The notes beneath the pieces are model-generated. The model searched no databases. It was not told where the DNA came from and was given only the letters and a program-made list of their open reading frames with translations. Positions 25,911-29,384 of a stretch of DNA of 64,000 bases are shown one piece after another. The stretch is from Actinomycetota bacterium (GTDB lineage: Bacteria > Actinomycetota > Thermoleophilia > Miltoncostaeales > Miltoncostaeaceae). The stretch covers positions 1 to 64,000 of the forward strand of contig CAUJCX010000018.1 in assembly GCA_963169235.1 (NCBI GenBank). Reading direction: 5' to 3'. The position numbers and the translations under genes are program-made. Positions within the stretch are counted from its first letter, which is position 1, and each line of letters starts with the position of its first letter.

Positions 25911-26441
25911 ATGCCGACGTTCCGGACGTTTCAGGCGGTGTACTACCGGGCCGGCGACGGGTCGCAGCCGGTGGACGATTTTGTCGACGGGCTGCCGGTA
26001 CCGCACCAGGTCGCCCTCGACAACCACATTGACCGGCTCAACGCCCTGCACCCCGGTCGACCGCACCTGCCGTTTCCACACAGTTCCCAGATCCGCGGCG
26101 AACTGCGCGAGCTCCGCTGCCACTACGGCCGCAGTCTCTACCGGATCCTGTACCGGCGCTCGGGCACGCTCATCATCCTGCTCCACGCGCTCAGCAAGAA
26201 CGCGAGCCGCGTCCCGGAGGGCGACATCGCAATCGCCGAGCAGCGCTGGGAGGATTTCAAGGCCCGCATGGACGGCTCACCCCGAAAACCGCCGCGCGCA
26301 GCGGTGACGATGCCCCATGACGTCCATCGCGTCGTATTACCAAGTCTGATAAGGTGGGCGCCGAGACGCTCTCGATCCATCCCACCCGCGAAAGGTCGCG
26401 ATGTCCGAGGACACGAGTCCACTTGGAGACCTGGCGCATGA
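25911..26441 (+). CDS. higB: HigB/Gp49-like (RelE superfamily) toxin
   Basis: 176 residues. The first 115 match phage Gp49/HigB-type toxins (DUF891): VDDFVDGLP, IRGELRELRCHYGRSLYRILYRRSG and LLHALSKNASRVPEGDIAIAEQRW. These act as ribosome-dependent or free mRNA endonucleases. Residues 120-176 are an Arg/Pro-rich tail that runs 41 nt into the antitoxin gene in another frame; normal HigB stops near 115, so the tail suggests loss of the original stop. Toxin-first order is typical of higBA. Base composition is less GC-rich than the neighbours, consistent with transfer. Confidence 0.85.
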   Translation: MPTFRTFQAVYYRAGDGSQPVDDFVDGLPVPHQVALDNHIDRLNALHPGRPHLPFPHSSQIRGELRELRCHYGRSLYRILYRRSGTLIILLHALSKNASRVPEGDIAIAEQRWEDFKARMDGSPRKPPRAAVTMPHDVHRVVLPSLIRWAPRRSRSIPPAKGRDVRGHESTWRPGA

Positions 26442-26718
26442 GGGACGCCGCCGACGCGCACAGGCCAGCCGCGAGTACCGTGACGAACTCGGTAGGATCG
26501 CGCCGTTCGAGAAGATCGCCCGCGCCCTCGTCCTCCGCCGCGGCGAGCTCGGCCTGACGCAGGAAGACCTGGCGACCAAGGTCGGCACCAGCGTGCCGGC
26601 GATCAGCCGGCTCGAGAGTGGCACCCACGCACCGAACCTGCAGACATTGCAACGCGTCGCGAGTGCTTTGGCGATGGAGGTGACGGTCCAGCCGCTGGCG
26701 GCGGAAGGACCCCGCTGA
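26401..26718 (+). CDS. higA: HigA-like antitoxin, XRE-family HTH
   Basis: 105 residues; ATG 26401 with AAAGG about 5 nt upstream. The helix-turn-helix is in the C-terminal half: LRRGELGLTQEDLATKVGTSVPAISRLESGTHAPNLQTLQRVASAL in pattern, residues about 45-90. The N-terminal helix (EYRDELGRIAPFEKIARAL) would neutralise the toxin. It overlaps the end of higB by 41 nt. The complex should repress its own promoter. Confidence 0.9.
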   Translation: MSEDTSPLGDLAHEGRRRRAQASREYRDELGRIAPFEKIARALVLRRGELGLTQEDLATKVGTSVPAISRLESGTHAPNLQTLQRVASALAMEVTVQPLAAEGPR

Positions 26719-26767: not shown

Positions 26768-27757
26768 ATGACGCCTCCCGCCCCCTTCACCGCCGCCGAG
26801 CTTGAGGCCGCCCGCGCGCTGGTGGCACGCGACGTGCCCGTGACCCCCGCGTACCGCTGGCCACTTCTGTGCGAGGCGCTCGGCGCCGACGTGTGGGTGA
26901 AGCACGAGAACCACACCCCGGCCGGGGCGTTCAAGGTGCGCGGCGGCATCACGTACATGCACGCCCTGGTGCAACGCGAGCCGGGCGTGACCCGCGTCGT
27001 CAGCGCCACGCGCGGCAACCACGGCCAGTCCATCGCGCGTGCGGCCGTCGCGTGCGGGCTGGCGGCCACCATCGTGGTGCCCCACGGCAACAGCCCGGCC
27101 AAGAACGCCGCCATGCGCGCGTGGGGAGCCGATCTGGTGGTGCACGGGCGTGACTTCCAGGAGGCCGCCGAACACGCCGCCGACCTCGCCGCCACGCACG
27201 GATGGCACGCCGTACCCGCGTTCCATCCCGACCTGCTGCTGGGCGTCGCGACGTACGCGGCCGAGCTGCACGATCAGGTTCCCGATCTGGACGTGGTGTA
27301 CGTGCCCATCGGCATGGGCTCGGGGGCGTGCGCCAACATCGCGGTGCGCGACCTGCGGGGCCTGGCCACCCGCGTGGTGGGCGTGGTGGCGGCGGGGGCA
27401 CCTGCGTACGCGCTCTCGTTCGCGGCCGGCCACGTGGTCACCACCGAGCGGGCCGACACGTTCGTCGACGGCGTGGCCTGCCGCACGCCGCCGGCCGAGG
27501 GCGTCGCGGCGGTGGTGGCGGGCGCCGAGCGCGTCCTGCAGATCGGCGAGGACGACGCCCGCCGGGCGATGCGGCTGATGTGGGACGCCACCCACCAGAT
27601 GCCCGAGCCCGCCGGGGCCCTGGCCCTGGCCGGGGCCTGGGCCGACCGCGACGCGCTGGCGGGCCGCAACGTGGCCGTGGTGATGACGGGCGGCAACACC
27701 GACGCCGACGTGGTGCGCGACGCCCTCGCCCCCACCGGGGACGACGCCGCCACCTGA
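26768..27757 (+). CDS. threonine/serine dehydratase-like PLP enzyme
   Basis: 329 residues, fold type II PLP family. KHENHTPAGAFKVRGG (near 44-60) contains the Schiff-base lysine, ATRGNHGQS is the substrate loop, IGMGSGACAN the phosphate-binding glycine loop, and TGGNTD lies at the C terminus. It lacks the ACT regulatory domain of biosynthetic IlvA and so resembles catabolic threonine dehydratases or hydroxyaspartate/serine racemase relatives. Likely reaction: threonine or serine to the 2-oxo acid plus ammonia. Confidence 0.87.
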   Translation: MTPPAPFTAAELEAARALVARDVPVTPAYRWPLLCEALGADVWVKHENHTPAGAFKVRGGITYMHALVQREPGVTRVVSATRGNHGQSIARAAVACGLAATIVVPHGNSPAKNAAMRAWGADLVVHGRDFQEAAEHAADLAATHGWHAVPAFHPDLLLGVATYAAELHDQVPDLDVVYVPIGMGSGACANIAVRDLRGLATRVVGVVAAGAPAYALSFAAGHVVTTERADTFVDGVACRTPPAEGVAAVVAGAERVLQIGEDDARRAMRLMWDATHQMPEPAGALALAGAWADRDALAGRNVAVVMTGGNTDADVVRDALAPTGDDAAT

Positions 27758-27816
27758 GCACCGGCTTGCCGCGAGCGCGGCCGCGTGGCAGTGTCGGCGT
27801 CCTGCCTCGTCCGCTC

Positions 27817-28146
27817 GTGAAGGAGACCGACATCGCCTGGCTCGTGCTCGTGGCATCCGGGGTGCTGGAGGCGGTGTGGGCCACCGCGCTGGGTCGCAGC
27901 GAGGGGTTCTCGCGCCCGCTGCCGACGGTGGTGTTCGGCGTGGCGCTCGTGGTGAGCATGGCGGGGCTGGCGTGGGCCATGCGCACGCTGCCCATCGGCA
28001 CGTCGTATGCCGTATGGACCGGCATCGGCGCCAGCCTCACCGTCGCGTACGGCATGTCGGCGGGCACCGAGCCCGTGTCGCTGGCCAAGGTGACGCTCAT
28101 CGTGGTGCTGGTGGGATGCATCGTCGGACTGAAGCTGGTGGAGTGA
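27817..28146 (+). CDS. SMR-family exporter, SugE-like
   Basis: Small multidrug resistance protein with four membrane helices. From Ile at 27832 it has 104 residues and follows SugE closely: IAWLVLVASGVLEAVWATAL, GFSRPLPTVV, PIGTSYAVWTGIG. The membrane Glu (LEAVWA) is the drug/proton site. SugE-type members export guanidinium and quaternary ammonium ions. The conventional start is the GTG at 27817, which has no ribosome site, whereas a perfect AAGGAG (27820-27825) is 6 nt before an ATC at 27832 that aligns with the family's initiator Met. It overlaps the GNAT gene by GTGA. Confidence 0.88.
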   Translation: MKETDIAWLVLVASGVLEAVWATALGRSEGFSRPLPTVVFGVALVVSMAGLAWAMRTLPIGTSYAVWTGIGASLTVAYGMSAGTEPVSLAKVTLIVVLVGCIVGLKLVE

Positions 28147-28682
28147 GCGCCGACGACATCGTCACCGCGCGCCTGCGCCTGCGCCCGTGGCGCGCCGACG
28201 ACCGCGCGCCGTTCGCCGCGCTGAACGCCGATCCCGAGGTGATGCGGCACTTCCCCGCGACGCTCGACCGGTCGTTCAGCGACGCGCTCGCCGCCCGCCT
28301 GGCCGCGCACGTCGACCAGCACGGCTGGGGCATGTGGGCCCTGGAGGGTCCCGACGGCCGCTTCCTCGGGTTCTGCGGCGTCGCACCGGTCACGTTCACC
28401 GCGCCGTTCACACCCGCGCTGGAGCTGGCGTTCCGGCTGGCCCGCGACGCGTGGGGCCACGGCTACGCCACGGAGGCGGCCCGCGCGGCCCTCGACGCCA
28501 CGTTCGCGCGCGTCGGCGTGGACCAGGTGGTGGCGTTCACCACGCCCGGCAACGCCCGCTCGCGCGCGGTGCTGGAGCGCCTGGGCATGAGCCACGACCC
28601 GGACGACGACTTCGATCACCCCCGCCTTGCCGCGCGGCACCCGTTGCGCCGCCACGTGCTGTACCGCGCGCACCGCCCGTAG
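28143..28682 (+). CDS. GNAT-family N-acetyltransferase
   Basis: 179 residues, GTG 28143 in a GTGA overlap with the SMR gene. RimJ/RimL-type layout: TARLRLRPWRADD at the N terminus, LELAFRLARDAWGHGYATEA with the acetyl-CoA-binding RxxGxG-like loop, and TTPGNARSRAVLERLGM at the C terminus. Transfers acetyl from acetyl-CoA to an amine, often a protein N terminus or a drug; substrate unknown. Co-transcription with an SMR exporter hints at a resistance role (inference). Confidence 0.9.
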   Translation: MSADDIVTARLRLRPWRADDRAPFAALNADPEVMRHFPATLDRSFSDALAARLAAHVDQHGWGMWALEGPDGRFLGFCGVAPVTFTAPFTPALELAFRLARDAWGHGYATEAARAALDATFARVGVDQVVAFTTPGNARSRAVLERLGMSHDPDDDFDHPRLAARHPLRRHVLYRAHRP

Positions 28683-28730: not shown

Positions 28731-29049
28731 TCAGGGCCCGGAGGGAGTGCAGACCGACATGCCCATGCCCTCGGCCACGGCCGCCATACGGCGATCGTAC
28801 GTCACCAGCCAGCGAAGATCGTCCTGACACAGCATGGCGGTGGCAACGTGGATGGCGTCGAGACTTCGAAGGCCTGGCACGGCGAGCGCCGACGCCGCCT
28901 CGAGCACCGGATCGTCGACCGCGACCACGTTCACGGCGTCCACCACCGCGCGGGCGCGCGCGTGTTCGTCGTGCGTCCCCCCTGCTGCCCCCCTCCGCCC
29001 TCACCAGCCTCACCAGCGCCGACGAATCGAGGGAGATGAGCCCTGTCAC
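28731..29049 (-). pseudogene. degenerate VapC-like PIN-domain toxin
   Basis: The GTG at 29049 overlaps the antitoxin stop (GTGA) and begins a normal PIN start, VTGLISLDSSALVRLVRAEGG, with the first catalytic Asp. The frame then leaves the PIN sequence; the C-terminal half continues in another frame (DEHARARAVVDAVNVVAVDDPVL, LRSLDAIHVATAM, LVTYDRRMAA) to the stop at 28731. Around 30-40 residues holding the second acidic position are missing between the halves. A deletion plus frameshift has inactivated it; a sequencing error could explain the shift but not the missing length. Confidence 0.7.
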
Positions 29050-29318
29050 CGCTCGTCGCGACGGAGTTCTTCCAGCGCCTGCGAAAGGCCGCGGGCGCCG
29101 CGACGGGCGGGAGGAGGTGCCAACTCGAGGAGGGACCCCCGGGCACTCGTGACCCGCCCGCTCGCGACCGCGGCGGCGTAGCCCCCAGGGGCAGGGGGCG
29201 GGACCATCAGCGCAACGGGACGCCCGCGGTCGGTCACCTGCAGGGTCTCCCCCGCCTGCACGCGGCGCAGGTAGCGGCTGGCATGCTGCCTGAGTTCCCT
29301 GATCCCGATGGACTGCAT
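29046..29318 (-). CDS. Phd/YefM-type antitoxin
   Basis: 90 residues from the ATG at 29318 (an in-frame ATG at 29327 is possible). The N-terminal MQSIGIRELRQHASRYLRRVQAGETLQVTDRGRPVALMVP pattern is the Phd/YefM dimerisation and DNA-binding fold; the C-terminal tail (LLELAPPPARRGARGLSQALEEL) would wrap the toxin. Its partner PIN toxin is broken, leaving this antitoxin without an active target here; it may still act on related toxins or as a repressor. Confidence 0.85.
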   Translation of the reverse strand: MQSIGIRELRQHASRYLRRVQAGETLQVTDRGRPVALMVPPPAPGGYAAAVASGRVTSARGSLLELAPPPARRGARGLSQALEELRRDER

Positions 29319-29384
29319 GTTGCACATGTAGCACCGACGATGGCGTGAGGCGAGGTCGACACGCGCCGTCCGCGGCGCTCCGCG

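Follow-up and report, generated by a model that had tools for sequence, protein, structure and literature searches.

A plausible AUC initiation codon in a Gdx/SugE-type transporter gene of an actinobacterium

Near-cognate AUN start codons behind strong Shine-Dalgarno (SD) sequences are found in infC, the gene for IF3, whose AUU, AUC, and AUA starts are documented as IF3 autoregulated. In Streptomyces, the start codon is ATC in infC and GTC in sigR (PMC5472188), while in S. aureus AUU and AUA starts lie behind extended SD sequences (PMC13009471). The activity of such codons has differed between hosts: AUC is among four codons whose activity relative to AUG was 0.1 to 0.3% in a single E. coli construct and 5 to 20% with one leader in C. 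butyricum (PMC9680021). Among closely related genomes, a survey recorded a switch to AUU for 1 of 61,358 ancestral AUG starts and listed none for AUC (PMC5622118), a count that is lowered by annotation practice, which conceals such cases. No AUC starts turned up in a search of the mycobacterial proteogenomics literature. Here we describe a gene of the Gdx/SugE type of small multidrug resistance (SMR) transporter that has ATC at its start, where the Gdx/SugE exporters have ATG or GTG.

The transporter gene and its reading frame

The gene lies within the window, by which we mean the whole stretch of 64,000 nucleotides analyzed. The features at its locus are as follows.

26768..27757, + strand: upstream pyridoxal-phosphate enzyme gene, with its stop 74 nt before the ATC
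27766..27768, + strand: in-frame TTG with no visible SD
27817..27819, + strand: alternative in-frame GTG without an SD, adding five nonconserved residues (VKETD)
27820..27825, + strand: SD sequence AAGGAG, 6 nt from the ATC, pairing with the 3' tail of 16S rRNA from the same genome
27832..27834, + strand: ATC at the homologous initiator position, where relatives have ATG or GTG
27832..28146, + strand: gene for the SMR transporter of SugE/Gdx type; read from ATC, the frame has 104 residues and a stop
27844..27846, + strand: alternative in-frame GTG, at an SD spacing of 18 nt, with loss of the start of helix 1 including its invariant Trp
28143..28682, + strand: downstream GNAT acetyltransferase gene, whose GTG overlaps the SugE stop (GTGA)
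28144-28146, + strand: SugE stop codon TGA

The protein is a member of the SMR family by its match to PF00893 (Multi_Drug_Res; E=1e-18, 68 bits against a curated cut-off of 23.7, residues 7-98). The best-scoring NCBIfam model was SugE (NF008512), at 89.5 bits against a cut-off of 126, and we therefore assign the protein only as a Gdx-type SMR and not as a SugE equivalog. Its nearest solved structure is Gdx-Clo (6wk5; E=7e-21), with query residue 6 (I6, the ATC codon) aligned to Met1. The Gdx residues named in the literature are the central Glu E13, W16, S42, Y59, and W62, and the Trp16 position is occupied by Gly or Ala in Qac (PMC9574504, PMC7695847). All five are present here, as E18, W21, S47, Y64, and W67. 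When highly conserved columns were defined as those at least 90% conserved among 81 relatives, 35 of 36 were intact in the window protein, and the frame contains neither a stop nor a frameshift. With these residues and columns in place, the gene reads, as far as sequence can tell, as an intact Gdx/SugE-type SMR of the guanidinium-exporter type; its length, key residues, and overall alignment match those of Gdx-Clo and E. coli SugE. The overlap of the GNAT gene with the SugE stop also fits translation of the SugE frame.

The first-pass annotation of this DNA had proposed initiation at the ATC. The positions that it gave for AAGGAG and ATC and the 6-nt spacing between them are correct, and the frame yields the same 104 residues from ATC (109 from GTG 27817). 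Its statement that the two GTGs are the only canonical in-frame starts did not hold, since TTG 27766 and further candidates inside the upstream gene share the frame.

Start codons in relatives and ribosome binding at the locus

We compared the codon in the ATC column among 101 homologues (the codon tally has 102 rows because it includes the window's own ATC). ATG occupies this column in 81 and GTG in 6, and 16 further relatives of the same class have ATG (15) or GTG (1). Twelve of the 14 homologues with another codon have an ATG or GTG 1 to 6 codons upstream; the remaining two are the truncated copy L098, which is joined to another gene, and L024, a partial match that starts at residue 25, so that its codon is not placeable. 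Thus, the ATC stands at the initiator Met of SugE proteins, as originally claimed, aligning with Met1 of Gdx-Clo and with ATG or GTG in nearly all relatives. ATC itself was found at this column in none of the 101 homologues or the 16 further relatives; its conservation would support an AUC start and is not strictly required for one. Relatives that keep the GTG and the five extra residues, which would contradict an AUC start, were also sought, and GTG 27817 with VKETD proved to be conserved in no relative compared.

Some of the homologues have unusual starts of their own. Eight Micrococcaceae SMR paralogues (L077, L079, L080, L081, L084, L089, L092, and L101) start 4 to 6 codons upstream of the usual position, mostly with a start that overlaps the preceding stop (GTGATG), and are likely the second genes of tandem SMR pairs. 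The Sinomonas mesophila SMR copy (L098, 1980-2310) has a truncated start behind another gene's stop and is seemingly frameshifted near its end; it is probably a pseudogene.

To compare the start candidates, we used their duplex energies with the 16S tail. The 16S 3' end of the same genome is GGATCACCTCCTTTCT, showing that the anti-SD is intact. The energy before ATC 27832 is -9.5 kcal/mol, a value reached by about 3.4% of random 18-mers from the window, and in the relatives SD cores mostly lie 4 to 11 nt before the ATG or GTG. The corresponding energies of -1.5 kcal/mol before GTG 27817 and -2.7 kcal/mol before GTG 27844 bear out the earlier description of the former as lacking a ribosome site; the latter lies in helix 1, 18 nt from AAGGAG as described, with no SD at a usable distance. 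Given that spacing and the invariant Trp that would be lost, a start at GTG 27844 was rejected. A correctly spaced SD thus precedes the homologous AUC, and no canonical in-frame start is served by one. Among the 1509 ATC triplets on both strands of the window, the one at 27832 is the sole ATC with AAGGAG at a start-like distance. Since the chance of such an arrangement is 0.0005 per ATC position, or about 0.8 expected per window, the weight of this observation rests on the ATC being at the homologous initiator position.

Initiation at GTG 27817, lengthening the protein by five residues to 109, would use a canonical in-frame codon, and the upstream starts of the eight Micrococcaceae paralogues indicate that short extensions at this column are tolerated, which keeps a GTG start without an SD conceivable. 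SD-less starts also seem possible in this lineage, where infC appears to keep a TTG or GTG start with no adjacent SD. We nevertheless consider this start quite unlikely: beyond the weak pairing and the nonconserved VKETD, it would leave a well-placed AAGGAG purposeless inside coding sequence. Leaderless translation from GTG 27817 was rejected because the sequence has no -10-like hexamer at the needed spacing. A scan of the leader for sigma-70-like promoters found none, and a TTGCCG-N17-CAGTGT pair picked out by eye at 27766-27794 was set aside as weak (2/6 in the second hexamer). We also considered the organism's own infC as an internal control for AUC initiation and rejected it, as it appears to retain a TTG or GTG start. 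In the infC genes at L122 (G000:C22, minus strand), L133, L138, L143, and L147, the seeming TTG or GTG start without an adjacent SD directly precedes CCTCCTAGG or CCCCCTAGG, segments that resemble an anti-SD and for which an upstream GGAGG is a potential pairing partner. Autoregulation of infC in this family through such a segment is possible.

Origin of the ATC codon

The homologous start column, the SD, the absence of a conserved VKETD, and the lack of an SD before GTG 27817 together make 27832 the best-supported initiation site. We infer that the ribosome site probably serves 27832, whether the codon there is a true AUC or an ATG misread in the assembly. That the organism truly has AUC at this position is close to an even call, and the overall reading of an AUC start is plausible. 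The Streptomyces, S. aureus, and C. butyricum precedents make true AUC initiation possible. Against it stand the rarity of switches away from AUG in the survey cited above, the weak activity of AUC in E. coli, the lack of any relative sharing the ATC, and the single base that separates it from ATG in an assembly of 65 contigs.

The last of these points leads to the alternative that the codon at 27832 is ATG in the organism and the gene ordinary, the ATC being an assembly or consensus error. The codon differs from the family consensus by one G/C change behind an ideal SD, the assembly is fragmented, and searches found no independent copy of the species. Judging from the rarity of start codon switches (PMC5622118), consensus errors may be as frequent as true AUG-to-AUC changes or more so. 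A search for a near-identical allele with ATG showed that the gene is missing from the one other genome of the genus, and the same search in viral contigs and plasmids returned distant relatives only. The site itself carries no sign of error, and the remainder of the gene is clean. Taken together, we regard such an error as somewhat unlikely.

Our preferred explanation, an intact Gdx/SugE gene whose inherited start changed to ATC and is used as an AUC start, is held tentatively, at a little less than an even chance. The ancestral ATG (or GTG) at 27832 would have become ATC with the SD retained, so that AAGGAG would most likely still position ribosomes there. Initiator fMet-tRNA would then read AUC, a near-cognate codon, with reduced efficiency, yielding presumably low levels of a 104-residue protein with an N-terminal fMet. 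Such a start would resemble infC in having a near-cognate AUN codon behind a strong SD; however, unlike the autoregulated infC starts, the ATC is common to no relative, and thus a conserved or regulatory role is not indicated. It would likewise resemble Streptomyces sigR, another noncanonical start in an actinobacterium for which annotation picks a nearby upstream canonical codon (PMC5472188), although the sigR start is experimentally proven and regulatory while the present case is known from DNA sequence. If the base is right, this would be another bacterial gene with an AUC start, outside infC, and one whose start annotation pipelines would wrongly set at GTG 27817 or later; near-cognate initiation in actinobacteria could be studied in it as a simple test case. 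Because AUC starts are already documented in Streptomyces infC, it would add one more example of a phenomenon already known. Should the base be wrong, the ATC is a routine assembly error.

Ancestry, leader, and neighboring genes

In a phylogenetic tree, the window gene grouped at moderate support (87/82) with a Nocardioides jensenii copy that starts with ATG. The pair lay among sequences from Actinomycetes, and most relatives of the window gene's own class were placed elsewhere. This placement suggests, without proving, horizontal acquisition from an ATG-bearing ancestor. The leader also sets the gene apart from its relatives. A guanidine-III riboswitch lies just upstream in 12 of the 13 relatives scanned, including L005 from the same family, the exception being the truncated L098. 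In contrast, the window locus gave no Rfam match to this riboswitch even at E values up to 5, and none was found in the whole genome. Whatever the start codon, the leader has therefore been lost or replaced in this lineage. It is conceivable that the acquired exporter lost its riboswitch and that an IF3-sensitive AUC start keeps its level low, with the start codon replacing ligand control, but we consider this extremely improbable.

The missing riboswitch bears as well on whether the start codon was truly lost, leaving a recently silenced copy with little or no translation. An apparently degraded PIN-toxin gene about 600 bp downstream and the truncated, startless copy in Sinomonas (L098) would be in keeping with decay. 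The undamaged protein and the preserved SD argue against it, and we judge silencing to be very unlikely. Two toxin-antitoxin-like pairs flank the locus.

25911-26718: Gp49-like (HigB/RelE-type) gene overlapped by the helix-turn-helix gene that follows it, the second such pair near the locus
28731-29060, - strand: degraded-looking PIN-domain (VapC-like) toxin gene, adjoining a Phd-type antitoxin gene at 29046-29327

In the PIN gene, an N-terminal stretch and the C-terminal half (28731-28946) lie in different frames, and the part between them is seemingly missing.
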